From the NCBI GenBank assembly GCA_015061085.1, contig SUXG01000001.1, forward strand, positions 62,001-126,000: DNA of 64,000 nucleotides, read 5' to 3'. Below the pieces are notes generated by a model. That model was given only the letters and a program-made list of their open reading frames with translations, made no database searches and was not told the origin of the DNA. Position 1 is the first letter of the stretch. Every line of letters begins with the position of its first letter. Both the position numbers and the translations under genes were made by a program. Positions 45,730 to 63,312 of this stretch are shown here, piece by piece. Origin of the DNA: Bacteroidales bacterium. GTDB lineage: Bacteria; Bacteroidota; Bacteroidia; Bacteroidales; Muribaculaceae.

Positions 45730-45755
45730 AAAATCTCTCATGTTATAAATATTCC

Positions 45756-45792
45756 GGAAGAGGGTGCATATCGCATCCTCTTTCGTTTTTTA
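45756..45792 (+). terminator. terminator after the 878-aa gene
   Basis: GGAAGAGGGTGC pairs with GCATCCTCTTTC over 12 positions (two or three G-T), followed by a T run. Confidence 0.85.
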
Positions 45793-45945
45793 TGATCTGA
45801 TTGTTGTGTCGGCAGGTTTTAGCGATAGTCATTTTCTACAAATTTTCTGGCCGGGTTAAGTTGGTTTTGTGGATTTTGTAATTGCTGTCAGAGTCTGTGG
45901 TCAATCTTTTGTGGTTTATTTTCAACTACATTGACGTGAGGCTAT

Positions 45946-45977
45946 TTTGAGTTTTAAGGAAAAATAATTAACTTTGC
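45946..45977 (+). promoter_or_regulatory. lysS promoter
   Basis: TTTG (45946-45949), 20 bases, TAACTTTG (45970-45977); leader about 20 bases. Confidence 0.75.
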
Positions 45978-46004
45978 GCATTAATAATAAAATACATAAC
46001 AGTT

Positions 46005-47552
46005 ATGAGTATTCATGAATTGAGCGAACAAGAAGTAGTAAGACGTAATTCACTTGCTTTATTACGCGAAAGAGGCATAGAGCCATATCCGGCAGCCGAA
46101 TATCCTGTTGACGCTCATACAGTCGAAATAAAAGAGAATTTCAGTGATGATGCAGAGCGTCGTCAAGTGTGCATAGCAGGTCGCATCATGAGCCGTCGCA
46201 TCATGGGAAAGGCTTCATTTATGGAGTTGCAAGATAGCGAAGGTCGAATCCAAGTCTATGTCAGCCGTGACGATCTTTGTCCGGGTGAAGACAAAGATAT
46301 GTATAACGTGGTGTTTAAAAAACTTCTTGACATCGGCGACTTCATCGGCGTTAAAGGTTATGTGTTCCGTACTCAAATGGGTGAAATCACAGTTCATGCA
46401 GAAGAAATAACTATTCTCAGCAAGAGTCTTCGCCCTCTTCCTATCGTTAAGATGAAAGACGGAAAGGCTTACGATGCATTCACCGACCCTGAACAACGCT
46501 ATCGTCAACGCTATGTTGACCTCGTTGTAAACCAAGGAGTGAAAGACATCTTCCTCAAACGTACAAAGATGTTTAACTCAATGCGCGAGTTCTTCAATGC
46601 TCATGGCTATGTTGAGGTAGATACTCCTATTTTGCAATCGATTGCCGGAGGTGCAGCAGCACGTCCGTTTATTACTCACCACAACACGCTTGACATCCCA
46701 TTGTATCTCCGTATCGCCAACGAGTTGTATCTCAAACGTTTGATTGTAGGTGGTTTTGAAGGAGTCTATGAGTTTTCTCGCAACTTCCGCAACGAGGGTA
46801 TGGATCGCACTCACAATCCTGAGTTTACATGTATGGAAATCTATGTGAGCTATAAGGACTACAACTGGATGATGAATTTTACAGAGCAAATGCTCGAAAA
46901 GATATGTCTCGATGTCAATGGTACTACTGAAGTGAAAGTAGGCGACAATGTCATCAGCTTCAAAGCTCCATACAAGCGTGTCACAATGGCAGAAGCCATC
47001 AAAGAATTTACAGGCTACGACATTACAGGCAAAAGCGAAGACGAATTGCGCCAAATCTGTAAGGAACTTCACATTGAAGTTGACGATTCTATGGGTAAGG
47101 GTAAACTTATCGATGAAATCTTCGGCGAAAAGTGTGAAGGCAACTACATTCAGCCGACATTCATCATCGACTATCCTATCGAAATGTCGCCACTCACCAA
47201 GCGCCATCGCAATAATCCGGAGCTTACAGAGCGCTTCGAACTTATGGTCAACGGTAAGGAACTCGCAAATGCTTACTCAGAGCTTAACGACCCTATCGAC
47301 CAATACGAACGCTTTGTTGAGCAAATGCGCTTAAGCGAAAAGGGTGATGACGAAGCGATGATTATCGACAAGGACTTCATTCGCGCACTCGAATACGGTA
47401 TGCCTCCGACATCGGGTATGGGTATCGGTATGGACCGTCTCGCAATGTTATTGACCGGTCAGACGACAATCCAAGAAGTTCTTCTTTTCCCTCAGATGCG
47501 TCCTGAAAAGGTGAAAAAAGCTGCTGAAAACGAAGAAGAGGCAGAAGAATAA
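46005..47552 (+). CDS. lysS: lysyl-tRNA synthetase, class II
   Basis: Charges tRNA-Lys. 515 residues: N-terminal anticodon-binding OB domain (about 60-160, [22 protein letters not shown]) and a class II catalytic core with RYRQRYVDL, motif 2 [18 protein letters not shown], the substrate-binding [10 protein letters not shown] and motif 3 [14 protein letters not shown] near the end. A Glu-rich tail finishes the protein. It is monocistronic, with its own consensus promoter and a perfect terminator. Confidence 0.97.
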
Positions 47553-47589
47553 TCAGAAGCACAATAAGTCGGAAATTATCAACCATAGA

Positions 47590-47619
47590 GGCACGTTGTT
47601 GAAAAACAACGTGCCTTTT
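47590..47619 (+). terminator. terminator after lysS
   Basis: GGCACGTTGTT and AACAACGTGCC make a perfect 11-bp stem with a four-base loop, then TTTT. Confidence 0.9.
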
Positions 47620-47684
47620 CTGTAAAAGTGTTTAAAGAATTTTAGATTTAATGGGATTAAAATTGATGTAATCGATTCTAAAAT

Positions 47685-47715
47685 TTGTCATTATCGGTCA
47701 TTCTTTGTATATTTG
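47685..47715 (+). promoter_or_regulatory. distal promoter of the rluA-like operon
   Basis: TTTG (47685-47688), 19 bases, TATATTTG (47708-47715). Confidence 0.6.
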
Positions 47716-47770
47716 CGAATAAATAGCAAAGATTTACGGCATGTCGAAAAAATGCGACAAGCGGTATCAG

Positions 47771-47801
47771 TTGTTTTTGCACATGATTTGTTGTATCTTT
47801 G
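47771..47801 (+). promoter_or_regulatory. proximal promoter of the rluA-like operon
   Basis: TTG (47771-47773), 20 bases, TATCTTTG (47794-47801). It lies within an in-frame extension upstream of the chosen start and predicts a leader of only about 13 bases before the ATG at 47821. Confidence 0.6.
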
Positions 47802-47820
47802 CAAATCGAAACGTATAAAA

Positions 47821-48768
47821 ATGAGAGGAAAAGAACGACAGACCCAACGAGGCGGTTGGAAGGAAGACTATATAAAGGCCAAGCAAAACACCGGCGAAAC
47901 GGCTGTAGGTCTAATGGAGTTTATGCAAGGCATGGCAGGCGATGTCAAGCGAAATCAGTTGAAGACTTGGCTGAAGTATAATCAGGTTATGATTAATGGC
48001 ATTGTCACACGTCAATTTGATGCTCCGGTGGAACCGGGACAATGGGTTGAAATCAATTTTACGCGTCCGTTTGTGGTGTTTTCGCATCATCGCATGAGCA
48101 TAGTCTATGAAGACGATCATATTATTGTTGTCAACAAAGGATATGGCCTTTTGTCAATGGGTACCGACTCGGTGCGCAAAGACGAAACAGCATACGCTAT
48201 TCTTAAGGAATATGTCAAGAAGAAGCATCCGATGAATAAGATATTCATCATTCATCGTCTTGATCGCGACACATCGGGATTGATGATGTTTGCCAAGAGC
48301 ATGGAGGCAAAAGAAGCCATGCAGCATAATTGGAACAATATGGTGATCAGTCGCAACTATGTCGCTGTGGTCGAAGGAGTCGTTGAGCAAAAGAGCGGAG
48401 TGATACGCAGTTGGCTTAACGAGACGTCGCAATATGAAGTTTATTCCACACAAGAGGAAGGCAATGGACAGCTGGCAATCACTCGCTACAATGTGCTTGA
48501 TGCAGGTCATGGCTATTCACTTGTGGAATTTTCGTTGGATACAGGACGTAAAAATCAGATTAGAGTCCATGCTGCACAAGAGATGAAGCACCCAATCGTT
48601 GGCGATCGTAAATATGGTGCGGCATCAAGTCCTATTCATCGTTTGGCGCTACACGCTCGCACTTTGCGCTTTGCTCACCCTATTACTCGTGAAGATATGA
48701 ATTTCGAGCTTCCTATTCCTTCTCGCTTTGCCGGACTTGTAAAATACGGAACAAACAAAAATAAATAA
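47821..48768 (+). CDS. RluA-family pseudouridine synthase
   Basis: Converts specific uridines in rRNA or tRNA to pseudouridine. An S4-like RNA-binding region (about 35-90) precedes the catalytic domain with HRLDRDTSG (catalytic Asp148) and DTGRKNQIRVHAAQ. 315 residues from the ATG at 47821. An in-frame start at 47713 is rejected because a consensus promoter lies between. The next gene begins two bases after the stop. Which site it modifies cannot be told from the sequence. Confidence 0.92.
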   Translation: MRGKERQTQRGGWKEDYIKAKQNTGETAVGLMEFMQGMAGDVKRNQLKTWLKYNQVMINGIVTRQFDAPVEPGQWVEINFTRPFVVFSHHRMSIVYEDDHIIVVNKGYGLLSMGTDSVRKDETAYAILKEYVKKKHPMNKIFIIHRLDRDTSGLMMFAKSMEAKEAMQHNWNNMVISRNYVAVVEGVVEQKSGVIRSWLNETSQYEVYSTQEEGNGQLAITRYNVLDAGHGYSLVEFSLDTGRKNQIRVHAAQEMKHPIVGDRKYGAASSPIHRLALHARTLRFAHPITREDMNFELPIPSRFAGLVKYGTNKNK

Positions 48769-48769
48769 A

Positions 48770-49456
48770 ATGGATGTAAAAAACGAGGTTGATACAACGT
48801 TATCGGAATTAGACCTTAAGACAAAAGACCCTATCGGGATGATTGCTGCAATCATCTCTTGGATAGCGGCTCCGTTGATGATACCGGTTTACGGAATGAT
48901 ATTGATTTTTTCTCTATCGATAATGATGTTTACTCCTTTGGAGTCGAAATTATTGGTTGTCGGCATCGTGTTCGGTGTAAATGCGATATTGCCGGTGTTG
49001 CTTTTCTGTATGCTTAAGTTTTTTGGTATCATCGAAGACGTTGCGCTTAATAGACAGAATGAGCGAGCTATCCCTTACGTCATCATGATTATTTGCTATT
49101 TGGCGACAGCATTTTTTCTTTATACACGCCATGCACCATTCTGGGTGGTAATGTTTTTTGCCGGAGGTTCGGTTGCCGGTATTGTCAATCTTATAGTCAA
49201 CAAATGGTGGAAAATCAGTGCGCATGCGGCAGCCGCGGCAGGATTGGTGGCAATGCTTGTGCGTATGGATGCCGTAGGACTTCCTCAGACTGATGTCATC
49301 CCATGGATTGTGAGTGCAATCATTTTTGCCGGATTGTTGTGTTCAAGCAGAGTCTATCTGCGACGTCACACATTAGGGCAAGTGTTAGCAGGCTCTGCAG
49401 TGGGCTATTGCGGTGTGTATTGCTGCATGTTGGTGCAACCCGAACTTTTTATTTAG
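48770..49456 (+). CDS. PAP2-like integral membrane protein
   Basis: 228 residues with six or so membrane helices. The second half has KWWKISAHAAAAAGL and SSRVYLRRHTLGQVLAGSAVGY, reminiscent of the second and third phosphatase motifs of PAP2/lipid phosphatases (SGHA and SRxxxxxHxxxD). The first motif (KxxxxxxRP) is not evident and the final Asp is Gln, so it may be an inactive or divergent member. It is tightly linked to the rluA-like gene (one-base gap) and followed 23 bases later by purE. Confidence 0.75.
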   Translation: MDVKNEVDTTLSELDLKTKDPIGMIAAIISWIAAPLMIPVYGMILIFSLSIMMFTPLESKLLVVGIVFGVNAILPVLLFCMLKFFGIIEDVALNRQNERAIPYVIMIICYLATAFFLYTRHAPFWVVMFFAGGSVAGIVNLIVNKWWKISAHAAAAAGLVAMLVRMDAVGLPQTDVIPWIVSAIIFAGLLCSSRVYLRRHTLGQVLAGSAVGYCGVYCCMLVQPELFI

Positions 49457-49479
49457 AAACATATAAAATCACAATAGTT

Positions 49480-49986
49480 ATGAAACCTATCGTCAGTATA
49501 ATAATGGGAAGTACTTCTGACCTTCCTGTAATGGAGAAAGCAGCTGCTTTCTTCGACCAAATGGAAATACCGTTCGAAATGCTTGCTCTATCGGCACATC
49601 GCACTCCTCGCGAAGTAGAAGAGTTTGCTTCAAAAGCCAAAGATCGAGGCATTAAAGTGATAATAGCTGCTGCCGGTATGGCTGCTCACCTTGGTGGCGT
49701 AATTGCTTCATTGACATCGTTGCCTGTGATCGGAGTGCCTATCCGCTCGTCATTCGACGGTCTTGACTCGTTGCTTGCCATTGTGCAAATGCCTCCGGGT
49801 ATTCCTGTGGCTACTGTCGGGGTCAACGGTTCGTTAAACGCAGCGATCCTCGCATCTCAGATTTTGGCTACCGGCAACGATCAGATAGCATCTAAAATAG
49901 AAGCATATAAAAGCTCTTTGACCGACAAAATTGTCAAAGCAAACGAAGAGCTTGCCAAGATTGAATACAAATTCAAAACCAACTAA
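49480..49986 (+). CDS. purE: PurE, N5-carboxyaminoimidazole ribonucleotide mutase
   Basis: Purine synthesis step that moves the carboxyl of N5-CAIR to give CAIR. 168 residues with the class I signature: IMGSTSDLP, LSAHRTPREV and AAAGMAAHLGGVIAS. I chose the ATG at 49480, as the in-frame region above it overlaps the membrane-protein gene and is not PurE-like. No purK in the window. It precedes ispG by 11 bases, so they share a transcript. Confidence 0.96.
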   Translation: MKPIVSIIMGSTSDLPVMEKAAAFFDQMEIPFEMLALSAHRTPREVEEFASKAKDRGIKVIIAAAGMAAHLGGVIASLTSLPVIGVPIRSSFDGLDSLLAIVQMPPGIPVATVGVNGSLNAAILASQILATGNDQIASKIEAYKSSLTDKIVKANEELAKIEYKFKTN

Positions 49987-49997
49987 TAAATGACGAT

Positions 49998-51632
49998 ATG
50001 AGCATCTACAACTATAAGCGTCGCGAAAGTCGCGAGGTAATGGTTGGTAATGTCGGCATCGGTGGCGACAATCCGATACGCTTGCAATCGATGACCAACG
50101 TTTCAACCAATGATGTCGAATCATGTGTCAGCCAATCGATGCGTATTGCTGCGCGAGGGGGCGAAATTGTTCGTTTAACAACTCAAGGCGTGCGTGAGGC
50201 GACTGCCATCGGCGAGGTCAGGAAAGGATTGCGACAAGCCGGTTGCGACATCCCTATCGTTGCAGATGTTCACTTTAATCCTAAGGCAGCTTATGTTGCT
50301 GCTGAAAACACTGATAAGGTGCGAATTAATCCCGGAAACTTCGTCGATGTGGCGCGCACATTCCAGAAGCTTGAATTTACAGATGAGGAATATGCCGCTG
50401 AAATCGAAAAAATCCGTCAGGCATTGGTGCCTTTCCTCAGCCTTTGCAAAACCAACAAAACAGCAGTCAGACTCGGAGTAAATCATGGCTCGCTTTCTGA
50501 TCGCATAATGAGCAGATATGGCGACACTCCTGCGGGAATGGTGGAGTCGGTCATGGAGTTTTTGCGTATTTGTCGAGATGAAGATTTCAACGACATTGTA
50601 ATATCGATAAAGGCATCAAATACCGTAGTGATGGTCGAAACGGTGCGCTTGCTTGTCGCTGAAATGCAGCGTGAGGACATGGACTATCCGTTGCACCTCG
50701 GTGTGACCGAAGCCGGAGATGGCGAAGACGGTCGCATAAAAAGCGCTGTCGGCATCGGTGCGTTGCTGGCTGAAGGCATTGGCGATACGATTCGCGTATC
50801 GCTTAGCGAAGAGCCAGAAGAAGAAATCCCGGTGGCAAAATTCCTTGCCGAATATATCTCTCGCCGTAATGGACATAGCGCTATTGCTGAGCCGAAGCCT
50901 ATTGATGCTCAGTCGTTCAAAAGATCTCTCATTCCGGGGTTGGAGAGTGTTAAGCATCCGATTGTGGTGGGTCTTGACATTGGGCAAGCTCCGGATTCGT
51001 GGGTGGAATGTCGTGCTGATATGCCGATAGAAAACATCATTGATTCTCGACCGTTAATCGTCAGCTCAAATCATCAGAATTTTGTCGGCGAACTGCAAGC
51101 CTTCATGGCTAATCTGATAAATGCCGGCAAGTCAAATCCTGTCGTCATAAAGATAAGCTACAATACCGAATCTATCGAAGAACTGCAGATTATGGCTGCT
51201 GCCGATTTCGGCGCAATGCTTCTTAACGGATTTGGCTCGGGTATATGGATTGATGCGCCAAATGTTGACATGGAAGTACGCAATCGTATAGCACTCGGTA
51301 TCCTTCAGGCTGCACGCCTCAGAATTTCACGCACTGAGTATATCTCTTGTCCCGGTTGTGGAAGAACGCTTTTCGACTTGCAAACCACTATCCGACAGAT
51401 AAAAAGCGCTACAAGTCACCTCGTAGGGCTTAAAATAGGCATCATGGGATGTATTGTCAATGGCCCCGGTGAAATGGCTGATGCCGACTATGGATATGTC
51501 GGTGCGGCCGCCGGTCATGTGAGTCTATACAAAAACAAGACTTGCGTCGAAAAAAACATCCCGCAAGAAAACGCTATTGAGCGCCTTATTGCCTTGATAA
51601 AGGAAAACGGCGACTGGAAGGACCCCCAGTAA
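49998..51632 (+). CDS. ispG: IspG (GcpE), MEP-pathway 4Fe-4S enzyme
   Basis: Reduces methylerythritol cyclodiphosphate to HMBPP in isoprenoid synthesis. N-terminal TIM barrel (about 1-270; IRLQSMTN, IVADVHFNPKAAY, VRINPGN) and C-terminal reductase-like domain with cluster ligands SCPGCGRTLFD and MGCIVNGPGE. At 544 residues it is longer than the ~370-residue E. coli form because of an insert domain (about 275-430), as in plants, Chlamydiae and other Bacteroidota. The start sits 11 bases after purE. Confidence 0.96.
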   Translation: MSIYNYKRRESREVMVGNVGIGGDNPIRLQSMTNVSTNDVESCVSQSMRIAARGGEIVRLTTQGVREATAIGEVRKGLRQAGCDIPIVADVHFNPKAAYVAAENTDKVRINPGNFVDVARTFQKLEFTDEEYAAEIEKIRQALVPFLSLCKTNKTAVRLGVNHGSLSDRIMSRYGDTPAGMVESVMEFLRICRDEDFNDIVISIKASNTVVMVETVRLLVAEMQREDMDYPLHLGVTEAGDGEDGRIKSAVGIGALLAEGIGDTIRVSLSEEPEEEIPVAKFLAEYISRRNGHSAIAEPKPIDAQSFKRSLIPGLESVKHPIVVGLDIGQAPDSWVECRADMPIENIIDSRPLIVSSNHQNFVGELQAFMANLINAGKSNPVVIKISYNTESIEELQIMAAADFGAMLLNGFGSGIWIDAPNVDMEVRNRIALGILQAARLRISRTEYISCPGCGRTLFDLQTTIRQIKSATSHLVGLKIGIMGCIVNGPGEMADADYGYVGAAAGHVSLYKNKTCVEKNIPQENAIERLIALIKENGDWKDPQ

Positions 51633-51665
51633 CCGGAATTATACAATCATAAACATCAGATAATC

Positions 51666-52085
51666 ATGGAATTAAAAATTCAAAATATTGAACAGTTACC
51701 GGAAGTCGTTGGCAAATTCATCGAAACAATGGACGACCGAACAGTTTACGCCTTTCGTGGCGAAATGGGTGCTGGTAAGACCACATTCATCACCGAATTA
51801 TGTCGCCAACTCGGCGTCGATGATGCTGCAAACTCTCCATCGTTTTCTATCGTAAATGAATATCGCTCGGATACGACTGCCGAGCTCATCTACCATTTCG
51901 ACTTCTATCGCCTTGACAACATCGAAGAAGCACTCGAAATCGGTACTGAAGACTATTTCGACTCTGGAGCATTATGCCTTATCGAATGGCCTGAAAGGGT
52001 AGAGGACTTACTGCCGGGCGACACCGTTGATGTCTATATCAAAGTTGACGAAAACGATAATTCACGAATAATATCATTTGAATAA
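51666..52085 (+). CDS. tsaE: TsaE, tRNA t6A biosynthesis ATPase
   Basis: P-loop ATPase that resets the TsaBD complex in making threonylcarbamoyl-adenosine-37 of ANN-decoding tRNAs. P-loop GEMGAGKTT (32-40); NSPSFSIVNEY and HFDFYRLDN are conserved. 139 residues is normal. Its TAA stop overlaps the ATG of the next gene (TAATG), indicating translational coupling. Confidence 0.95.
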   Translation: MELKIQNIEQLPEVVGKFIETMDDRTVYAFRGEMGAGKTTFITELCRQLGVDDAANSPSFSIVNEYRSDTTAELIYHFDFYRLDNIEEALEIGTEDYFDSGALCLIEWPERVEDLLPGDTVDVYIKVDENDNSRIISFE

Positions 52086-52930
52086 TGGTAAGCATCTTGC
52101 GCCTCGAAGAAGTTGACTCTACCAATACATACGTGGCTAAAAACGTCGCAGATTTAGAGTCGGCTACGATAGTCACTACCGACCATCAGACAGCAGGTCG
52201 TGGCCAGCGTGGAAACTCATGGGAATCCGAACCGGGCATGAACCTGACATTCACAATGCTCATGCGTCCGGAGAAATTTGCGGCGATAAGACAATTCTCT
52301 TTGAGCGAGGCTGTCGCTGTCGCAATCGTCGATGTGATAGGCGAAGAACTCGAAATTTTTACCGAAATAAAATGGCCTAACGACATCTATTGGCGCGACA
52401 ATAAATTAGCAGGAATTCTCATCGAACACGCCGTAATGGGTAGCGAAATCATGCACACGATAATCGGAGTGGGGCTGAATGTCAATCAAACAAAATTCCT
52501 GAGCGACGCTCCGAATCCGATTTCATTGCGTCAGATACTGATTAATCGTGGAGAAAAAGGCGACACAATCATCGATAGAGACATTCTACTTGAAAAAATC
52601 GGAACACGCATCAAAGAAAACATCCTTCGCCTGACAGATGAAAAAGCATTGGAAAGAATACACGACAAATACATGCGACGTCTGTGGCGCAACAATCATC
52701 AGGTCTATAAATTTCGTGACGTAGAATCGGGAAGAATTTATCCCGGAATAGTCGGTGAAATAGAGACGACCGGTCATCTCTGCATCTATGAGCCCAAAGC
52801 TGGAAACATCGCTAAACGGGCTATCGCAAACGATGATACAGACTCTAACGTCACGACTCCCAATAAAATGACAGATAAAGACTGCATCTGCCATCGCTAT
52901 GCATTCAAAGAGGTGGAATGGATAATCTGA
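52085..52930 (+). CDS. birA: biotin--[acetyl-CoA-carboxylase] ligase
   Basis: Attaches biotin to carboxyl-carrier proteins via biotinyl-AMP. 281 residues. The biotin-binding loop GRGQRGNSW is near 38-46, IKWPNDIYWRDNKLAGILIE follows near 98-117, and a small SH3-like C-terminal domain is present. There is no N-terminal DNA-binding domain, so it is the monofunctional type without repressor activity. A Cys-containing tail of about 30 residues extends past the usual end. Start overlaps the tsaE stop by one base. Confidence 0.93.
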   Translation: MVSILRLEEVDSTNTYVAKNVADLESATIVTTDHQTAGRGQRGNSWESEPGMNLTFTMLMRPEKFAAIRQFSLSEAVAVAIVDVIGEELEIFTEIKWPNDIYWRDNKLAGILIEHAVMGSEIMHTIIGVGLNVNQTKFLSDAPNPISLRQILINRGEKGDTIIDRDILLEKIGTRIKENILRLTDEKALERIHDKYMRRLWRNNHQVYKFRDVESGRIYPGIVGEIETTGHLCIYEPKAGNIAKRAIANDDTDSNVTTPNKMTDKDCICHRYAFKEVEWII

Positions 52931-53041
52931 CCCCCCTTAAAAATTGCCCTACGCACTAAAAAATTCTATAGACATATTAGTTGTATTTTACAATGGATTT
53001 GAAAGTTACTTCCCAATATTCGAAAGCAAATAAATAATGTT

Positions 53042-53049
53042 TACCTTTG
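53042..53049 (+). promoter_or_regulatory. putative -7 box for the nuclease-like gene
   Basis: TACCTTTG fits TAnnTTTG and lies 30 bases before the start; no TTTG at the expected distance. Confidence 0.35.
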
Positions 53050-53079
53050 TGAAAGAAAAAACTCATAAAACCTAATGAT

Positions 53080-54066
53080 ATGGAACGTATTCTTAGTGGC
53101 GATGATATTTATTATTTGAAAGAATATCAATTAGAAAAAGATTTTGAGCAGGATGTAGTCAAAAATTACCGACATATATTCGGCAATGATACTATTTATA
53201 TTGACATCAAGAAGAAGATTGGTGATAATATTGTAACCATTCCAGATGGTTACTTGCTTGATTTCACCTTTCCCAACAACCCACGCTTATATATCATTGA
53301 GAATGAATTGAGCGTTCATGATGCCTACAAACACATCGGTACACAACTCTTGAAATTTGCCGTATCATACAAACAAAGCCGTCTAAAAATCAAACACTAT
53401 ATCCTTGATTATCTATCTAAAACGCCTAATGATATGACCTTCATTGAGAAGAAAGCGTCAGAAATGCGCTACCGTAATATTGACGCGATGCTTGAGACTA
53501 TGATTTATAGAGATACTGTAGATGCTATTGTTATTATCGACAATAGTTCGGTGGAACTTGAGAATGTTTTGAGCCATCTTTCAATGAAAATTGACATTAT
53601 AGAGTTTAGGGCATACGAGAACAGAACAGGAAATAGGATCTATAAATTTATTCCATTTAACAACGAGGTTAAGGAGTTTGTCGCATCAAGAGGAGACACA
53701 AAGAATGTTTCACCGGAAGAAATTGATACTATTGTAGTTCCTGCACAAGAAGATGGTTTTCAATCAGCTTTTATAGAGAGTAACGCGTGGTGGCAGATCC
53801 GTATATCTGTATCTATGCTTGACAAGATTAAGTATATTGCAGCCTATCGTACGGCTCCGATATCAGCAATTACCCATATTGCTGAGGTTGATCACATAGA
53901 AAAGTACAAGGATACTAATAAATATATCCTATATTTTAAGGAGCATGCAAAAGAGATTCCACATATTGAGTTAGATAAAGATAAAAAAGGCGTTGCGCCA
54001 CAAGCATCTCGCTACACTACATATGTGAGATTGATGTCAGCAACGAAATTGTCAGAGGTCTTTTAG
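53080..54066 (+). CDS. PD-(D/E)XK-like nuclease with a PUA/EVE-like C-terminal domain (undescribed)
   Basis: 328 residues, not recognised as a named protein. The N-terminal part looks like a PD-(D/E)XK fold: a Glu-bearing helix (EKDFEQDVVKNYRHIFG, 19-35), PDG with Asp56, then a strand LYIIENEL giving Glu74-x-Glu76 and a following helix with Gln89. ExE replaces ExK, as in BamHI. A second alpha/beta segment (about 145-200, DAIVIIDNSS) links to a C-terminal ~85-residue domain. That domain (WWQIRISVSMLDKIKYIAAYRTAPISAITHIAEV ... SRYTTYVRL) is split here: it starts near WWQIRISV, continues with KIKYIAAYRTAPISAITHIA and ends in SRYTTYVRL, resembling PUA/EVE-type modified-base readers. It is a single gene, more AT-rich and Lys-rich than its neighbours. 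A modification-dependent restriction enzyme is a plausible but unproven role. Confidence 0.55.
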   Translation: MERILSGDDIYYLKEYQLEKDFEQDVVKNYRHIFGNDTIYIDIKKKIGDNIVTIPDGYLLDFTFPNNPRLYIIENELSVHDAYKHIGTQLLKFAVSYKQSRLKIKHYILDYLSKTPNDMTFIEKKASEMRYRNIDAMLETMIYRDTVDAIVIIDNSSVELENVLSHLSMKIDIIEFRAYENRTGNRIYKFIPFNNEVKEFVASRGDTKNVSPEEIDTIVVPAQEDGFQSAFIESNAWWQIRISVSMLDKIKYIAAYRTAPISAITHIAEVDHIEKYKDTNKYILYFKEHAKEIPHIELDKDKKGVAPQASRYTTYVRLMSATKLSEVF

Positions 54067-54156
54067 CATATATCATTAACCAAGCAAAGGCAACACAACA
54101 ATTTTGTGCTGTCTGCATTATTATGTATAAAACAGAGAGTTTGGGGTATCGGTTAA

Positions 54157-55119
54157 TTAGAAGCCGAAGGCGATGTTATCGATGTATAGCGTAAGCCCTT
54201 CTGTGCCGATGTATGGCGTGCCACTTGCAGAACTTGCCATTACCATGACATGAGTAGGAGTGGAGTCTGCCGGATCCCAACCGATTTCCTGTACCGGCAC
54301 AAGTTTTCCTTTAGAATTACGGGCGTATGTCGCTTTATCTCCTTGGAGAAGCCCCATCCAAGACTTATAGAATGATTGCTTAGTGATGTCGCCATAGTGT
54401 ATCTTCATCTGATGACCGTTTTTCCATCCCGTAGAGTTGTAATAGCGCTCTCTGCCTGTTCCGACGCGATGTGCATAGATATTTCCCTTGGCGTCTTCCC
54501 AACGGCGTTGTAAAAAGCAATAAACCTCGGCGCAGTCACGACCATTGAGAATTTTTTGTGGGCTAAGACCGGTCGCTTTAATGCGAGTGTTGGTGTTAGG
54601 CATATCCACCTTATAGTCAAACACAAGAGCCGTAGGACGCTTCGTGTAAGGCACTCCCATCTCCATTTTCGAATACGGACCGTTTGGCGATGTGATAGGC
54701 TCATAGATGCGTCCCAAGAAGATTGTCCCTGCCACCATCACGTCCATATTGATGATGCCAAGCACCTTTACTTCCTCCATCAATGCCGACATTTTCACGC
54801 ACTTGTTGCCACCACCGCGATCGTATGGCGTCACAGTATTGGAGGCTTTCACGATGCCTGCCACCTTTGCATAAACGTTGCTTGTCGCCCATGGAGATCC
54901 ACCGAGATTAGCATACGCTTTATTGCCGGCAATCGACTGAGTAGGTCCGATTTCATAGACCGTCTTTGTCTTCCCGCCGAGCACCTTCGACTCTGTGATC
55001 GAGCGTGAGATCCATTGGCTGAAATCACTATATTTGATTTTTTCCAATCGCAAAGCATGCGTTGGAAGTATTGTTGCTGCAAGAATGATTGCAATTGTTA
55101 TATGTCTTAAAATGTTCAT
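54157..55119 (-). CDS. secreted PCMD-domain-like protein
   Basis: 320 residues: signal peptide (1-22, cleaved after THA), then a single beta-sandwich-like domain. Phrases such as YTKRPTALVFDYKVDM, GLSPQKILNGRDCAEVYCFLQ, QRRWEDAKGNIYAHRVGTG and HVMVMASSASGTPYIGTEG match my memory of the PCMD ('putative carbohydrate metabolism') family of Bacteroidota. It ends LYIDNIAFGF, as these domains usually do. It lacks a lipobox. A TAATTTTG box at 55184-55191 (minus) lies 65 bases above the start. A carbohydrate-binding role on the cell surface is inferred. Confidence 0.72.
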   Translation of the reverse strand: MNILRHITIAIILAATILPTHALRLEKIKYSDFSQWISRSITESKVLGGKTKTVYEIGPTQSIAGNKAYANLGGSPWATSNVYAKVAGIVKASNTVTPYDRGGGNKCVKMSALMEEVKVLGIINMDVMVAGTIFLGRIYEPITSPNGPYSKMEMGVPYTKRPTALVFDYKVDMPNTNTRIKATGLSPQKILNGRDCAEVYCFLQRRWEDAKGNIYAHRVGTGRERYYNSTGWKNGHQMKIHYGDITKQSFYKSWMGLLQGDKATYARNSKGKLVPVQEIGWDPADSTPTHVMVMASSASGTPYIGTEGLTLYIDNIAFGF

Positions 55120-55290
55120 GATAGAAGAATTATGGCTTGTATATTTTCTTATAAAGAAAGTGTTTTTGTTTTATTATAACATGCAAAATTACGAAAAATA
55201 TTTCATCTGAATTGGTTAGATTGGCTCAGAGTTTGTTCTAAATCGGAACAAATCGAATTATATATTATATAATTGTAATAGTTTCAGAGC

Positions 55291-55327
55291 AAAATAAAGA
55301 AGAGACCCCGTTGTTCGGAGCCCCTTC
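55291..55327 (-). terminator. terminator after the 1520-aa adhesin-like gene
   Basis: On the minus strand GAAGGGGCTCCG, a five-base loop and CGGGGTCTCTTC pair over 12 positions (several G-T), followed by TTTATTTT. Confidence 0.8.
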
Positions 55328-55356
55328 AGAAAAATTATTTATTTATGAGAAGTAGG

Positions 55357-58300
55357 TTATTTCACAATGAGTTTTGCTGTAGAGCGTCCTGCTTTGACGA
55401 TATAGATGCCCGGTTCGACTTCCGCTTTTGTGCAATCACTTTCAGAAATGAATGTTGAGACGATTTTGCCGTCGAGAGTCGAGATGCTGACTTTTTCGCC
55501 AAAGTGGTTTTTGATGATAATCAAACCCTTTGAAGCATATATCGCGGAGTTGAAGATTGAGCTATCGATTCCTGCAGGCGAAACAATTGCGTCGTTTGAT
55601 TTGACTCCACGAGTGCCATTATTGAGTACAGGTACTACATTGTATTTGTAGATTGCTTCGCGATCGGTGATAGTATTATCGGTGTAAGTATTGCCGACAA
55701 AATTTTCTTTGATAGTGATGTCGTCACGAAGGATGTCGTAGCCGATTACTTCAAGGCCGTCGTTGACAGATGAGAATTGAATATCGTCGATAATAATACC
55801 CATGATGTCTTTAGAGACATAGCGAATAGCGAAATAGCGAGCGTCGGCAGGTAGGGTCGCACGACATTCTTCCCATTCGATCATATCGTCCGATTTTGAG
55901 GGATCGCCAACTTTGAAAGATGACACAAGCGTGAATGCTTCAATGTTGTCGGTAGTCGATGAAGCAAGGATTTCAATAGTCTCAGCACCATATACGTTTG
56001 TAATCGGTTGAGCTTGGAAAGATACTTCAGTGCCACCTTTTATTTCTTCTGATATTAACCAGTCGTCGGCAGTCGGAGCAGCGCCTAAAGCCATATCCCA
56101 CATTGGAGACATAGCGATCAAGAAGTTGTCGCCGTCGTAAGCAGCAAATTCGCCAATCACGCCGTAAGAAGCCATGATAGCATTCACTTGTGTAGCGTTC
56201 CAAACCACCCAACCTGCAGGTTCGCCTTGGTTAGGACAAACCCAATTGCTGAAGTAATTGAGAGCAGCACCATCGCCGTCAATGTTTCTGAACGGAATTA
56301 AAGTCGGAGTGATTTCAAATGGAGTGTTATCCTCGAAACTGCCGTCGCCGAAATTGAGTTGAATCTCACTCCATTCCAAACTGATAGAAGTGTCGGTGGA
56401 GTCAGTAGCACGAAGGTCGCTGACTGCGATTGTGCTATTATTGTTTTTGACCTCAGTTAATGTGCTTGCCGAATTGTTGGCATTGTTCATATCTTGTGCG
56501 TCAAGTTTGTAAACGACTTCAAGTTTGCCGATATGGTTGACTGTAGGTTCGAGTTCAAACTCTATAGTTGTCTTTTCTCCCGGCTCAATAGTAATTTCAG
56601 ATAAAACAGGAGACTCTTCTTGGATGAGACGACCATTGTTATAGACTTCCCATTTACCGTAAGGAGTGCCTGCAGTTTCAAAACCGGCATTTTCGATGGT
56701 TGCCACGTATTTAGCTTTTTGGTCGATAGATATCAATGACGGACCTGTAACGCTTGTCACAGCCAAATCGTTAGCGACCATGTTGCGAATTTCATATTGA
56801 CCTACGATTACAAATGTGTATGCCACAGGATAAGTCGCATCAAAATATAGTTCGACCCATTTCTTGTTATGGAATTCTTCAGGAAGAGTTATTGACATTG
56901 TTCCCCAGCCATTTGTCTCTGTATCGTCGGCAGTAGTGCCGATTTTTACCGGTTGACTCATGCCATATGTGTATGCGAGGATGTCGGAGTCAATGCCTCG
57001 GAAGTAATAATCGAAAGTAAAGACAGGATTTGTCGCTCCTTCTGTTGAGAATTTAGCAAGGCTCAGACGGCCTTTGCTTTGTGCTGATTTACCATAACCA
57101 ACGATAGCACTGCCTTTGTCGTAAGCTGCATTAGGAGCATATTTGCCCGGATCATCGACAAACCATGCTTGATCGTTGTAATCATCAGTAGGAGTCCATG
57201 AAAGCATTGGGTTGCAACTTGCCATTCCGTTAGGGAATGTTTCTACCATAGGAAGTGGATATGGCTCGCCGGCAACAACGTAGATAGAACTTACTGCAGG
57301 GCAACGGCCTGCTTCGTTGACTGCTACAATACCGATGTTATAGGCTCCTAACGATTCACCTTTATCAATTGTATAGTCAAATGAATTAGTTGTAATAGGA
57401 TCGATAGAAGTATCCACTATCCAACCCATATAGTCGGTATAATAGCAAATGCGATAGGTCAATTCATCAGGACGGATATATCCACCGTTGAAACCTTGAG
57501 TCGGAGCATCCCATGTCAAATAGATTGTCATGTTGTCTTCGCTGACAGATGATTTTATGCCTGTGACGATATCGGGAGTGTCAACACCAGTATAGACTAC
57601 GCTTTCGGTTATGCGTCCTGCTCCATAGCTGTTTTCTGCATATATTTTAATGATGTTGTTGCCTTGTTCGGTTTCAACTTGTTTGCGAAGTTTCGCACCC
57701 GGTTTGCCACTGATAGTCACTGTTTCGACAGGACTGATAATTGTAGCGGTAAGCTCGGTGTCTTTGTCTAAAGCGTTGCCTTTCATATCTGTTTCAGGCA
57801 AATTGAAAAAGACAGTGGTGTTCAGACCACCTTCAGAGGCAACCTTATGTGTGATGTTAGTCACAATGTTTGGCACGTTTGTAGTACGATCGCTTTGGCT
57901 GATACGAAGGTTATTAATCATCAACATGTATTGTGCTGCTTTAGAAGTTGCGCGAATACCGATGTAATATACGCCTGCTGCATCGATTGTGAAAATGTCT
58001 GAGTATGTCTTGAAATATGAGTGATTAATATCATCTTTGCCGAAAATTTTGACCATGCTTTCCGGAGATGCTGTAGCACCGATATATACTTCGAATGCTT
58101 CTGTGTATTGTCCGGCTGATGCAGCAGCGTCAAGGCTGATCTCGTATATGCTGTTTGTGTCTGTGAATTTGATTGGAGGAGTAATCAACCAATCATTTGC
58201 ATCATTATACAGATTAAAATAGTTATAGAAGCAAGGAGTTGTATTGTCGAATTTCCAAGTGGTGCCGTCTTCGTTTGCATCGACATAATTGAATAACAAC

Positions 58301-59919
58301 GATTCTTGTTGAGTCGGAGTGAATGAAGCAGGCAATGTGTAAGGATCTCCATGAATTACAGTGTTTGAAACACCCGGTTCCGACTGAAGTCCTGCGTGGA
58401 TGGCATAGACTTTTGCTGTGTAGGCAGAGATCGTTTTGCCTTTTTCAAATTCGTAGGCATAAATCGGATATTTAGAAGAACCGACTTTTTCGTCATTAAC
58501 GTAGACATCGTAAGTAATGGCAGATGTGTTGATATATCCATTGTTGATGCCTTGAGTGACAGCATCCCATCGAATACCATCGTTGCCGAGTTTGACATTT
58601 GTAGGAGCTAAAGGAATGTCATTGCCTATATAAATTTCTTTGATGATTTCTTGGCTCTTTTTCCCGTTGAGAGTGCAATAGCATTTGATAGATTGGTAGC
58701 CGTTTGTAAGGTCGAGATTGATGGTGACTGTCTCTCCTGCACTTGCTGTGCCGGAATTCATTTCGACATCGTTGACCAAAACGTTATAGCCTATTGCTTC
58801 TGTTATGGTTTGACCATTATGTGTTGTTGTCGGCATGATGTAGCTTACGCTACCTGATGTCGATCCTTGAGCAAAATCGATACTCTTAAGCGTAGGGTTG
58901 CCAGGGGCATCGCCTTCAATGGCAGGGTCGTTGCATGCAAAGAACGAGTAGCGTTCTTCTTCTACCCAATCTTCAATTTTTGTGCAACTTTTGTTTTTGA
59001 TATCGATAGAGTAGAATGCTGCGATGCCACTTGTGTAATTGACATTCCACAATATAGTTTTGTCTGCAGGACTGTAAATCATTGCAGTCGGATTGCTGTC
59101 GATGGAAATCTTAGTATCAAAAATTTCAGTTATAGCGCCGTTTTCAGCGTTTACTTTGACAAATTTTCCTCCTGTAGTAACACCATATAAAGTACGATCG
59201 ATAGGGTTGTATGCTAAAGAAAGGCAAATCTCGTTGTAGCTGACTTGGTCGTTGATTGTCGTCATATTCGACATATCATCTGACGATGCTGTGCGCAACA
59301 TGTAGCCGTTACCATTACGATTGTAGGTGTAGGCATAGAATGTGTCGGAATCAGAATCGTATGCACCACAGATAACAGTGTTGCTGAAGTTTCTATGATC
59401 GGTCTGTTTGAATTCAAGTTGTTCTCCTGTGTTGATGTCCCAAACACCATAATATGTGGCATAGACAGAATAAGCGTCAGAATCGTGACCATAAGCATAA
59501 AGTTTGCCATCGCGCACAAAACCTAACGACAAATACTTTGGACTGTCCCACAAAGAAGTGGAGCCCGTGCCATCTGTCATGATTTCGCGAAATTCGTAAG
59601 TGTATTCTGTTTTGCCATAAAAATCAATATCCCAAGCCAAAAAGCCATAAACGGTGGCACCTGAAGGACTGATTCTTGAAGGCGAATTGAATTTGTCTTC
59701 GCGATTGCTGTTGAAAAATGCTGTTGTCGGATTTGCACTGAGAATATTGCTTTTAAGGTTACGAGGCTTAATCTCAGCTGTGATTTTTTGATTTTTACCT
59801 GATTCGTATGAAGATTTCTTTTGAATCAGAGCTTTCTGGTTATACTCGCCGGCAATGGCAAAACCACCAATGGCGATGCATAATAAAGAAAATAACGATA
59901 CTAAAAATTTGTGTTTCAT
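55357..59919 (-). CDS. large adhesin-like T9SS cargo (choice-of-anchor J, FN3 and CARDB-like modules; 1520 aa)
   Basis: Signal peptide from Met at 59919 (MKHKFLVSLFSLLCIAIGG). Order: a beta-propeller-like region (about 80-340, repeated Tyr-Gly-Val phrases), FN3-like modules (from about 440), a first cleaved-adhesin/choice-of-anchor J domain (about 545-670, NDWLITPPIKF), more FN3 (to about 880), a second anchor-J domain (about 890-1080), a CARDB-like domain (about 1090-1200), a third anchor-J domain (about 1220-1400, DDWLISEEIKG) and a type A-like sorting tail (IYASKGLIIIKNHFGEKVSI ... VKLIVK region; EPGIYIVKAG). Related to gingipain adhesin domains. The upstream Met at 59943 is not preferred because it delays the signal peptide. 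Host or matrix binding is inferred. Confidence 0.82.
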   Translation of the reverse strand: MKHKFLVSLFSLLCIAIGGFAIAGEYNQKALIQKKSSYESGKNQKITAEIKPRNLKSNILSANPTTAFFNSNREDKFNSPSRISPSGATVYGFLAWDIDFYGKTEYTYEFREIMTDGTGSTSLWDSPKYLSLGFVRDGKLYAYGHDSDAYSVYATYYGVWDINTGEQLEFKQTDHRNFSNTVICGAYDSDSDTFYAYTYNRNGNGYMLRTASSDDMSNMTTINDQVSYNEICLSLAYNPIDRTLYGVTTGGKFVKVNAENGAITEIFDTKISIDSNPTAMIYSPADKTILWNVNYTSGIAAFYSIDIKNKSCTKIEDWVEEERYSFFACNDPAIEGDAPGNPTLKSIDFAQGSTSGSVSYIMPTTTHNGQTITEAIGYNVLVNDVEMNSGTASAGETVTINLDLTNGYQSIKCYCTLNGKKSQEIIKEIYIGNDIPLAPTNVKLGNDGIRWDAVTQGINNGYINTSAITYDVYVNDEKVGSSKYPIYAYEFEKGKTISAYTAKVYAIHAGLQSEPGVSNTVIHGDPYTLPASFTPTQQESLLFNYVDANEDGTTWKFDNTTPCFYNYFNLYNDANDWLITPPIKFTDTNSIYEISLDAAASAGQYTEAFEVYIGATASPESMVKIFGKDDINHSYFKTYSDIFTIDAAGVYYIGIRATSKAAQYMLMINNLRISQSDRTTNVPNIVTNITHKVASEGGLNTTVFFNLPETDMKGNALDKDTELTATIISPVETVTISGKPGAKLRKQVETEQGNNIIKIYAENSYGAGRITESVVYTGVDTPDIVTGIKSSVSEDNMTIYLTWDAPTQGFNGGYIRPDELTYRICYYTDYMGWIVDTSIDPITTNSFDYTIDKGESLGAYNIGIVAVNEAGRCPAVSSIYVVAGEPYPLPMVETFPNGMASCNPMLSWTPTDDYNDQAWFVDDPGKYAPNAAYDKGSAIVGYGKSAQSKGRLSLAKFSTEGATNPVFTFDYYFRGIDSDILAYTYGMSQPVKIGTTADDTETNGWGTMSITLPEEFHNKKWVELYFDATYPVAYTFVIVGQYEIRNMVANDLAVTSVTGPSLISIDQKAKYVATIENAGFETAGTPYGKWEVYNNGRLIQEESPVLSEITIEPGEKTTIEFELEPTVNHIGKLEVVYKLDAQDMNNANNSASTLTEVKNNNSTIAVSDLRATDSTDTSISLEWSEIQLNFGDGSFEDNTPFEITPTLIPFRNIDGDGAALNYFSNWVCPNQGEPAGWVVWNATQVNAIMASYGVIGEFAAYDGDNFLIAMSPMWDMALGAAPTADDWLISEEIKGGTEVSFQAQPITNVYGAETIEILASSTTDNIEAFTLVSSFKVGDPSKSDDMIEWEECRATLPADARYFAIRYVSKDIMGIIIDDIQFSSVNDGLEVIGYDILRDDITIKENFVGNTYTDNTITDREAIYKYNVVPVLNNGTRGVKSNDAIVSPAGIDSSIFNSAIYASKGLIIIKNHFGEKVSISTLDGKIVSTFISESDCTKAEVEPGIYIVKAGRSTAKLIVK

Positions 59920-59954
59920 TTTATATAAAAGTTTTGTTGTCAATAAAATAATTG

Positions 59955-59962
59955 CAAATGTA
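59955..59962 (-). promoter_or_regulatory. putative -7 box of the adhesin-like gene
   Basis: TACATTTG on the minus strand, 36 bases above the start; no clear -33 element. Confidence 0.35.
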
Positions 59963-60188
59963 ATAATTCATTTTTGAAAACTAAAATTAGCCGTTGTTTT
60001 TGTGACATAGAGCACTATTTATCATATTTACGTATGAGTTTTTCGGATACAATTATAGGGATAAGATTAAAAAATGTAAAATTTTTTGTAAATTTGTCGA
60101 AAATTATGATTATGCGATATGAATTTTTAATAATATCTATAGCGTAATAATCATAAAATAAGCATGGTAACCATATAATAATTGCATA

Positions 60189-61916
60189 ATGAATTATTCG
60201 ATTGTTGATTTTCTCAGTCTTCTCGGAGCTGTGTGTCTCTTCCTATATGGGATGAAGATTATGAGTGAGGGCTTGCAAAAAGTGGCAGGCGATCGTTTGC
60301 GCAATATCCTTGGCGCAATGACCAAAAACCGTGTAATGGGCGTAATTACCGGTGTAGTAATCACGGCACTTATTCAGAGCTCTAGCGCATCGACCACAAT
60401 GGTTGTAAGCTTTGTGAATGCCGGATTGATGACATTGCAGCAATCTATGGCTGTGATTTTTGGGGCTAATGTCGGCACAACATTTACGACATGGATTATT
60501 TCGGCATTCAGTTTTGAAGTCAGCATTTCCGACTATGCCATTGCATTGCTCGCATTGGCTGTGCCTATGATTTTTATGAAGCGCAGCGCATGGAAATATA
60601 CAGGTGAATTTTTGATTGGTTTCTGCTTGCTCTTTATGGGTCTCGATCTTATCAGCAAGTTTGTGCCAAACCTCAAAGACAACCCTGAAATGCTGCAATT
60701 CCTCAGCGAATACACATCAATGGGATTTGGCTCAGTGGTATTGTTCTCTTTGATCGGAGCAATATTGACGATGGTCATACAATCATCGGCGGCAACATTT
60801 GCCATTACATTAGTGATGTGTTCCCAAGGATGGATTTCGTTTGAATTGGGATGTGCGATAGTGCTTGGTGGAAATATCGGAACAACAATTACTCCGGTAC
60901 TCGCTTCGTTGAGTGGTAATTTGGCGGCAAAGCGAACAGCCATGGGACACGTGCTTTTTAATACGTTGGGTTCACTCGTTGCCTTGATAGTGTGGTATCC
61001 GTTTATAAATCTTGTGGCTGAGGTGACAGAATTTTTCGGTGGCAAGGATCCATTGGCTGTCGGTGCGACATCTGCGACAGTCGCATTGGGATTGGCTATT
61101 TTCCCAACGGTTTTCAATACGATTAACTTGTTTATCATGATATGGTTTACAAAGTTGTATGTAAAAATTGTGTGTACAGTCATGCCATCTCATCACAAGG
61201 ATTCGGAAGAAGAATTCACCCTCAAATACATCGGACGAGGTCTGCTCTCTGCTTCTGAACTTAATATTGCCCAAGCACAAAAAGAGATTGTCGTATATGG
61301 CGAAAGGGTGCAAAGAATGTTGGGTATGGCACAACGCTTGCTCCACCTTGACGAAAAGAGTGAAGAATACACAAAAGTGTATAATCGCCTTGAAAAATAT
61401 GAAGAAATCGCCGACCGAATGGAAATTGAAATTGGCAACTATCTCAATCATGTGGCAGAAGGAAAGTTGAGCCCGGAAGGCAAAATGAAAATTGCCGGCA
61501 TGTTGCGCATGATTTCAGAGATAGAATCAATCGCCGACGGATGCTACAATGTCGGTAAAACTCTCAATCGAAAAAATCAAAATCATGTAAAATTCAACGA
61601 TAGCACAATGAAAGAAATCGACACAATTTACAAGATGGTCGATGACGCTATGGTCAACATGATGGAAATCCTTCGCGAAATGGAGACACCGGAAGAGAAT
61701 AAAATCATCGCCTCCTACAATCGCGAGCGTGAAATCAACAACTATCGCAACAAACTTCGTGACGCAAACATCTACAATATCAATAATCGCGAATATGATT
61801 ATCAAGAAGGTATTTTTTACATGGATATTGTGGGCGAAGCTGAAAAACTCGGTGACTATGTATTGAACGTAGTCGAAGGCGTTAAGCATCAATTCCGTGC
61901 CGACAGCGATGATTAA
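60189..61916 (+). CDS. Na/Pi cotransporter family protein with PhoU-like C-terminus (copy 2)
   Basis: 575 residues, same plan as the 40106 gene: PNaS repeats with QSSSASTTMVVSFVNAGLM and QSSAATFAITLVMCSQGW, and a PhoU-like helical domain (about 370-570). Identity with copy 1 is moderate, not that of a recent duplication. A TAAATTTG box (60089-60096) lies 93 bases above the start and is the only promoter hint. The second gene of this kind in 20 kb suggests different roles, for example uptake versus export. Confidence 0.9.
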   Translation: MNYSIVDFLSLLGAVCLFLYGMKIMSEGLQKVAGDRLRNILGAMTKNRVMGVITGVVITALIQSSSASTTMVVSFVNAGLMTLQQSMAVIFGANVGTTFTTWIISAFSFEVSISDYAIALLALAVPMIFMKRSAWKYTGEFLIGFCLLFMGLDLISKFVPNLKDNPEMLQFLSEYTSMGFGSVVLFSLIGAILTMVIQSSAATFAITLVMCSQGWISFELGCAIVLGGNIGTTITPVLASLSGNLAAKRTAMGHVLFNTLGSLVALIVWYPFINLVAEVTEFFGGKDPLAVGATSATVALGLAIFPTVFNTINLFIMIWFTKLYVKIVCTVMPSHHKDSEEEFTLKYIGRGLLSASELNIAQAQKEIVVYGERVQRMLGMAQRLLHLDEKSEEYTKVYNRLEKYEEIADRMEIEIGNYLNHVAEGKLSPEGKMKIAGMLRMISEIESIADGCYNVGKTLNRKNQNHVKFNDSTMKEIDTIYKMVDDAMVNMMEILREMETPEENKIIASYNREREINNYRNKLRDANIYNINNREYDYQEGIFYMDIVGEAEKLGDYVLNVVEGVKHQFRADSDD

Positions 61917-62031
61917 TCGTTGAGGCTCAAACAAAAGTTTGTAGAGATTTGTTTATCAGAAAAAGAAATTAAGGAAGCATTCAAAAGCTAAAGTATTAAC
62001 TTAATCCGGAAATTTTTAGAAGTATCTTTAA

Positions 62032-63117
62032 ATGAGACAACATAGATATTGTGTTATCATGTGTGGCGGTGTGGGGTCAAGATTTTGGCCTTTCAGCCGC
62101 ACTAATGTGCCAAAACAATTCCTTGACTTCTTCGGGACAGGGAAAAGCTTGTTGCAGATGACAGTGGAACGCGTCAGTACGCTTGTCGATAAAGATCGCA
62201 TAGTGCTCGTGACCAACGAGTCGTATGCTGATATGATACGTCAGCAACTACCTGAAATTAAAGAAAGCAACATACTGTTAGAGCCGGCACGTCGCAACAC
62301 GGCACCATGTATCTGCTGGGCTGCTCACCACATCTTCGCTCAAGACCCTGAGGCATCGATAATGACGTTGCCGAGCGACCATCTGATACTTAAAGAAATG
62401 GCGTTCATCAAAGCGATGGATGAGGGTATGACTTTTGTTGAAAACAACGACGGCTTGCTGACTCTTGGCATCAAACCGACATCGCCGGAAACCGGCTATG
62501 GCTATATCCAAAAAGGAATGCAAGTCATAGGCTCTGACGACACAATGAAAGTCAAATCATTTACCGAAAAGCCAAATCTTGAAATGGCTAAAATGCTGAT
62601 TGCGACAGGTGAATTTTTCTGGAACTCCGGTATTTTCCTTTGGAGAGCCAAAACTATCCTCGAGGCTTTCAAAAAGTATGCTCCGGAGATTGCTGCTCAT
62701 TTCGATATGGGGCTGCCTTACTATGGTACGGAAAAAGAGCAAAATTTCATCAACGATGAATTTGTCAATTCTCCAAGCATTTCAGTCGATTACGCAATAA
62801 TGGAAAAGGCTGAAAACGTCTATGTCAAAACTGTCGATCTCGGATGGAGTGATCTCGGCACGTGGAAGGCTCTTTACGAGACATCTCCAAAAAACATAGA
62901 AGGCAATGTCACCCAAAATTGCAAATTGATAAGCAACGATTGCAGTGGCACTGTTTTCGCTATTAAAGGCGATAAAGTGATTGTCGCAGTGGGCCTTAAA
63001 GACTATATTGTGGCTGAAAATGGCAATGCTTTGCTGATTTGCCCTATGTCGGAAGAACAGAAAGTTCGACAAATGGTCAACGATGTAAAATCCAGATTTG
63101 GAGAAGATTACATATAA
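62032..63117 (+). CDS. manC: mannose-1-phosphate guanylyltransferase
   Basis: Makes GDP-mannose from GTP and mannose-1-phosphate, the donor for surface polysaccharide and for GDP-fucose. The N-terminal pyrophosphorylase signature MCGGVGSRFWPFSR...PKQFLDF is at 7-30, with FTEKP near 184 and EFFWNSGIFLW near 200. At 361 residues it is the monofunctional form without the C-terminal phosphomannose isomerase cupin of long ManC proteins. It lies 115 bases after the cotransporter gene. A terminator follows. Confidence 0.93.
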   Translation: MRQHRYCVIMCGGVGSRFWPFSRTNVPKQFLDFFGTGKSLLQMTVERVSTLVDKDRIVLVTNESYADMIRQQLPEIKESNILLEPARRNTAPCICWAAHHIFAQDPEASIMTLPSDHLILKEMAFIKAMDEGMTFVENNDGLLTLGIKPTSPETGYGYIQKGMQVIGSDDTMKVKSFTEKPNLEMAKMLIATGEFFWNSGIFLWRAKTILEAFKKYAPEIAAHFDMGLPYYGTEKEQNFINDEFVNSPSISVDYAIMEKAENVYVKTVDLGWSDLGTWKALYETSPKNIEGNVTQNCKLISNDCSGTVFAIKGDKVIVAVGLKDYIVAENGNALLICPMSEEQKVRQMVNDVKSRFGEDYI

Positions 63118-63195
63118 CAATTGATAGACGGCAAAGACCGCAGAAAAATATTTTTCGTGATTAACACGTGGGATTTAAATCCCCGTAATCCTATA

Positions 63196-63237
63196 ACGAG
63201 CAGAAGGCATCATCGCTTTCTGTTCGTCGTTTTTTTA
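63196..63237 (+). terminator. terminator after the guanylyltransferase gene
   Basis: ACGAGCAGAA pairs with TTCTGTTCGT (one G-T), followed by CG and a run of seven T. Confidence 0.85.
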
Positions 63238-63280
63238 GAAAAATAATAAATTCAAAGGAAGAAGGATTATTGGCTATAAA

Positions 63281-63312
63281 TTTGGAAAAATAGAACAATT
63301 GCGTTAATTTTG
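63281..63312 (+). promoter_or_regulatory. promoter of the PAP2 phosphatase gene
   Basis: TTTG (63281-63284), 20 bases, TAATTTTG (63305-63312). Confidence 0.75.

Follow-up and report, generated by a model that had tools for sequence, protein, structure and literature searches.

Related systems and the gene under study

Single-chain type IV restriction enzymes usually combine a nuclease with a reader domain of the PUA type. Fusions of EVE domains to PD-(D/E)XK, HNH and GIY-YIG nucleases were reported in 2020 as putative type IV enzymes (PMC7641849). The EVE-HNH endonuclease VcaM4I, also of type IV, flips 5-methylcytosine (5mC) or 5-hydroxymethylcytosine (5hmC) into a pocket in which the base stacks on aromatic residues (PMC7897488). 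CMoRE (PD-T4-3) is a 5hmC-dependent GIY-YIG enzyme that cuts 5hmC DNA, with a sensor domain for which the authors could identify no homologue (PMC12923530). The gene described here lies in a 64,000-nucleotide stretch of the genome of a gut bacterium of the Muribaculaceae (contig SUXG01000001.1, positions 62,001 to 126,000), called the window below, and encodes a protein in which a predicted PD-(D/E)XE nuclease precedes a predicted PUA-superfamily reader. It is probably a one-gene type IV-like enzyme, in which the reader would bind DNA with modified bases and the nuclease would cut, defending against phages by modification-dependent cleavage. The gene and its two domains are as follows.

53080..54066, + strand: single-chain nuclease-reader gene, an open reading frame (ORF) with an ATG start encoding 328 amino acids, for which full-length relatives exist
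53080..53676, + strand: N-terminal nuclease region, residues 1-199, with a core at about residues 17-180 that bears D56, E74, E76, H80, H85 and Q89
53713..54045, + strand: C-terminal PUA-superfamily reader domain, residues ~212-322, from the predicted structure and fold matches

The window protein shares with the EVE-nuclease fusions (PMC7641849) the single-chain arrangement of PUA-superfamily reader and nuclease, with the same nuclease superfamilies, but its reader lacks a Pfam EVE match at an expectation value (E) of 10 and in fold is equally near ASCH and YTH domains. VcaM4I (PMC7897488) has an N-terminal reader for 5mC/5hmC and an HNH nuclease, whereas the window protein has a C-terminal reader and a PD-(D/E)XE nuclease. 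CMoRE is alike in being a single chain with the nuclease first and the modification sensor last (PMC12923530), although its N-terminal nuclease is of the GIY-YIG type, in place of which the window protein has a PD-(D/E)XE core. The CMoRE structure 9u75 gave weak Foldseek matches to the models of the window protein and of a GIY-YIG fusion described below (E 0.023 and 0.19). It was not among the VIA fold matches listed for either model, nor among the PDB sequence matches, where its presence in the PDB copy searched is unconfirmed.

An earlier note on this DNA, made from the sequence alone, had called the protein a candidate undescribed modification-dependent nuclease. The family is indeed unnamed in the libraries searched, but the design is not new: because EVE-PD(D/E)XK and EVE-GIY-YIG fusions were already named in 2020, the family is an unnamed member of a described kind, and the census in that paper may already count these proteins (PMC7641849). 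It stands out because none of the libraries searched names it, and by an acidic third active-site residue and domain exchange in both directions. In the literature searched, which lay mostly outside subscription journals, none of the titles and abstract openings listed names this family, and DUF5655, the label of one related architecture, was not mentioned.

Scans of the 328-residue protein against Pfam, NCBIfam and PADLOC gave no meaningful family match. Matches to HTH_45 (Pfam, E 1.1), IF-6 (NCBIfam, E 0.031) and, by PDB profile, to tau (E 6.4e-4), an NRas fusion and RbcX were rejected as chance because they lacked domain coverage, involved repeats or had the wrong fold. Homologues were counted at E 1e-3 from three seeds, with overlaps kept, and some of the counted proteins may share one domain only. 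The window protein gave 1928 (the best 120 of the 1928 each being at least 90% identical), the distant full-length relative L039 gave 2435 among the best 8000 candidates scored, and the third seed gave 1884. Source names among the 120 matches listed for L039 include Acidobacteria, Terriglobia and Propionibacteriaceae.

Nuclease domain

Structure prediction of the 328-residue protein was of high confidence (pLDDT 88.8, pTM 0.86) and returned both the core of a restriction endonuclease and, at the C-terminus, a domain of the PUA superfamily, so neither half of the earlier proposal is missing from the model. Residues ~17-180 are predicted to adopt the alpha/beta nuclease core of the PD-(D/E)XK superfamily, with EndoMS/NucS, HamA and FokI ranking first among the nearest folds and PaqCI also near. 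The putative active site agrees with what had been read from the letters, namely an Asp in a PDG turn, a Glu-x-Glu on the next strand and a Gln-bearing helix: D56 lies within IPDGYLLDF, E74-N75-E76 on the predicted strand 69-76 and Q89 in the following helix 82-99. In an alignment of 75 rows, E74, E76, H80, H85 and Q89 are each conserved in 75/75 and D56 in 74/75, far above chance, and the catalytic Asp and Asp/Glu of the superfamily are thereby both present (D56 and E74). The sole row without D56 is an Alistipes copy (L003:1732-2724), which has Gly at this position and an otherwise intact frame; this copy is possibly inactive, or a sequencing error lies behind the Gly.

Most PD-(D/E)XK enzymes carry Lys at the third position of the motif, which is usual and not universal, as BamHI has Glu. 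No Lys is found here: residue 76 is Glu in all 75 rows and Asp in the distant relatives L015 and L018. Since the same active-site residues recur across other architectures, the acidic residue in place of Lys is a family trait. The protein is accordingly placed in the superfamily on its predicted fold alone, as an ExE variant. BamHI, which is not known to have a reader domain, also uses ExE instead of ExK, and to this extent the description as BamHI-like stands. A kinship in fold was dropped, since the top fold matches are EndoMS/NucS, HamA and FokI and those listed (Foldseek, VIA) do not include BamHI. EndoMS/NucS has ExK where the window protein has ExE, and is a mismatch repair enzyme with a different second domain.

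One relative of the nuclease domain, of the DUF5655 type (L011:952-2433), lacks D56, E76, H80, H85 and Q89, and is perhaps a non-catalytic version of the domain.

Reader domain

The C-terminal part contains A254-A255-Y256-R257, I264-T265-H266 and S310-R311-Y312, the pattern from which the earlier note had predicted a reader. That note began the domain at residue 235, which is too late, as the PUA-like domain begins near residue 212. By their conservation, W237, Y256, T265, H266, K281, R311 and Y312 are candidates for residues of the pocket or wedge. In the predicted structure the domain forms the beta pseudo-barrel of the PUA superfamily and matches ASCH, YTH and EVE chains, including VcaM4I; ASCH is best, though within a tie. 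When the reader was modelled again within the GIY-YIG fusion, it was the aligned portion of the model in 49 of the 50 matches listed, with PUA-superfamily chains as the partners. Neither Pfam EVE nor Pfam ASCH gave a profile match at E 10 for the window protein or at E 1 for ten relatives (hmmscan, not profile-profile). The designation as a PUA/EVE-like reader is thus retained for the superfamily fold and not narrowed to EVE, since on the models the domain cannot be placed there rather than in ASCH or YTH.

The single PHROGs match was weak and links residues 258-309 to phrog_9479, a family without an assigned function (E 6.7e-4). A 130-residue protein of Aeromonas phage phiAS5 matched the window model in fold (E 4.3e-4). 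From these two matches, phages may carry a stand-alone domain of the reader fold. Sequence searches of the phiAS5 record gave no match, an empty answer that is uninformative for that search, and phage records searched by tblastn with either the whole protein or its C-terminal domain gave none.

Exchange of domains

Both halves of the protein are re-used separately in other fusions. The same reader is also fused to an intact GIY-YIG nuclease (profile match E 5.3e-66), in which G57, Y59, Y74, G76, R84, H88, E117 and N134 are each conserved in 62/62 rows. Conservation of 97% or more is shared by 18 positions of the reader between the two fusion families, aligned in 75 and 62 rows. The same nuclease domain is also found on RAMA, on DUF5655 and on two unassigned tails; the tails in L028, L036 and L037 have no assigned family.

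A Tolypothrix plasmid carries a second ORF of 99 amino acids (L006:1125-1421) that matches the start of the reader (hmmsearch 7.9e-17), about 2.1 kb from the GIY-YIG fusion on the same plasmid.

Proposed mode of action

In the proposed mechanism, the C-terminal PUA-superfamily domain would bind DNA bearing a modified base, which would probably be flipped into the reader pocket as in EVE, SRA and YTH domains. The N-terminal PD-(D/E)XE nuclease, which probably dimerises and binds metal ions through D56, E74 and E76, would cut nearby DNA after the reader docks on modified phage DNA. Unmodified host DNA would be spared; a partner methylase would therefore not be needed, and the gene could move alone as a promoter-carrying cassette.

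We infer that the target is DNA. An RNA-directed nuclease, with the PUA-like domain recognising a modified RNA (tRNA, rRNA or phage RNA) for cleavage by the PD-(D/E)XE domain, as abortive defence or in the manner of a toxin, is improbable. In its favour, RNA was the first ligand associated with the PUA superfamily, and ZmASCH and YTH m6A-RNA readers are among the closest folds to the reader. Against it, the nuclease folds nearest the model are DNA enzymes such as EndoMS, FokI and PaqCI, and both the swaps with RAMA (in Pfam, Restriction Enzyme Adenine Methylase Associated) and the restriction-modification (R-M) neighbours described below point to DNA.

If the type IV-like reading is true, a large group of single-gene enzymes that cut DNA according to its modification lacks a named family in the libraries used. 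The natural swaps, in which a single reader occurs with two nucleases and a single nuclease with several tails, would let reader specificity be separated from cleavage, and readers of new DNA modifications would be useful for mapping modified bases. A more far-reaching version is rather unlikely. It holds that the reader is a separate PUA-superfamily branch for modified phage DNA, carried on two unrelated nucleases, with the nuclease on at least five tails (the reader included), the whole being a modular repertoire of single-gene type IV enzymes without a named family in the catalogues searched; the reader may then answer to a modification of gut Bacteroidales phages other than 5mC/5hmC, and CMoRE's orphan sensor may be distantly related to it.

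Neighbourhoods of relatives

Eleven loci with the nuclease-reader architecture and flanks were compared (L001-L004, L039-L044 and the window; L042 and L043 are sisters), and in four of them an R-M gene close by was identified by single scans. An MmeI-type IIG enzyme lies directly downstream in L040 (gene end 10897, IIG start 10903), an Eco57I-type IIG enzyme two ORFs downstream in L039, a C5 methylase starts 0.65 kb downstream in L044, and in L043 a type III Res protein is encoded three genes upstream. Elsewhere, L041 has a Fic protein nearby, L003 an RmuC-type match and L001 the PADLOC candidate PDC-M43B just upstream. With these R-M neighbours and a sporadic, transferred distribution (below), the homologues are not tied to a housekeeping context, which the earlier note would have taken as a refutation.

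The methylase-bearing enzymes beside L039, L040 and L044 would also suit an enzyme of ordinary R-M systems, either a restriction nuclease with sequence specificity or an accessory nuclease, whose PUA-like part binds DNA and which host methylation blocks. This is distinctly improbable: the window gene has no nearby methylase, none of the five singly scanned neighbours of L001, L002 and L003 matches a methylase model (E 1e-10), the R-M type varies by locus and the gene travels alone. For the type IV-like enzyme, where a relative has a methylase as neighbour and both genes are active, the reader presumably ignores the marks that this methylase places on host DNA.

A pooled scan covered 73 of the 134 listed neighbour proteins, from 14 loci, of which L038, L045 and L057 are not of the full architecture; the other 61 proteins lie beside N-domain genes with other tails. 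It matched 206 PADLOC and 61 Pfam families, including ThsB TIR, AbiEii, Fic and a LlaJI restriction enzyme whose locus is unassigned. For comparison, 61 control proteins, taken from six 12-kb stretches on contig 1 in six of these genomes, gave matches to 47 PADLOC families; the 206 and 47 are not to be read as a ratio, because one methylase matches many models. Among the 25 of these 47 families that were listed are models of the DpdF, PsyrT and mads types; none is for a restriction enzyme or a methylase.

A HipA-like kinase, identified by Pfam HipA_2, is the second gene downstream in L043 (L043:11160-11972), and L042, from the same genus, shows the same ORF layout with its corresponding gene at L042:5085-5897.

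Distribution and transfer

The gene is sporadic. Among 200 relatives, its own genome included, five match, the other four only within residues 5-196. Among 395 genomes of the phylum, the C-terminal domain is present in 9, the N-terminal domain in 17 and both in 6 (its own, G280, G418, G428, G442 and G495, with G428 and G442 in the same genus). In the genus of the window, BirA is present in 52/61 genomes, and in the 29 BirA loci fetched (~1.5 kb per side, some shorter) TsaE adjoins BirA in 28 and the nuclease-reader gene is present in none. A search of plasmids with the N-terminal domain (tblastn) gave no match.

The earlier suggestion of horizontal transfer is borne out by identity. Protein identity to the copies in three Alistipes metagenome-assembled genomes (L001-L003) is 91, 80 and 67%, whereas for GcpE, the sole housekeeping protein compared, it is 52-58% in those three genomes. 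By blastn of window positions 45000-64000 against L001-L004, the DNA similarity to L001 takes in no flanking gene.

53032..54072, + strand: DNA similarity to the Alistipes copy L001, the transferred unit (~1.04 kb), 85.5% over 1044 columns
53042..53056, + strand: candidate promoter element TACCTTTGTGAAAGA of the Bacteroidota TAnnTTTG type, inside the transferred cassette

On these sequence comparisons, the gene moved between lineages, in one direction or the other, as a cassette of ~1.04 kb. Nonsynonymous (dN) and synonymous (dS) divergence from L001 are 0.045 and 0.91; dN/dS is ~0.05 against L001 and ~0.09 against L002, and the gene is therefore under purifying selection. A DNA repair nuclease like EndoMS/NucS, which is nearest in nuclease fold, acting on mismatches or damaged bases, is highly improbable: the presence of both domains in so few genomes, the transfer between lineages, the broken copies and the exchange of the second domain are all unlike a repair enzyme.

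The broken copies, of a kind often seen with dispensable genes, are an internally shortened one in G433 (L019:1471-1830), a C-terminal fragment in G243 (L020:1441-1629) and an N-terminal stretch with three stops in G508 (L035:1381-1674).

Gene surroundings in the window

The gene stands alone, as the earlier note had stated, with no adjoining methylase in the window. GcpE, TsaE and BirA genes lie upstream, and two large, exported-looking proteins of 320 and 1528 amino acids are encoded downstream on the opposite strand. The description of the gene as AT- and Lys-rich also holds: its GC content is 35.7% against 42.5% window-wide, and the Lys content of its product is 8.8% against 2.9-7.5% across four neighbouring genes. 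An Rfam scan of 52500-54500 gave no family. A terminator-like hairpin is visible by eye 3' of L001 and L002 and is not clear in the window. The candidate promoter element TACCTTTGTGAAAGA follows TAnnTTTG, the Bacteroidota promoter consensus, and its core TAnnTTTGT is kept in L001 and L002 and not in L003. The element is the one exact match to the promoter pattern in the window, and with at most one mismatch there are 4 matches against 0.76 expected.
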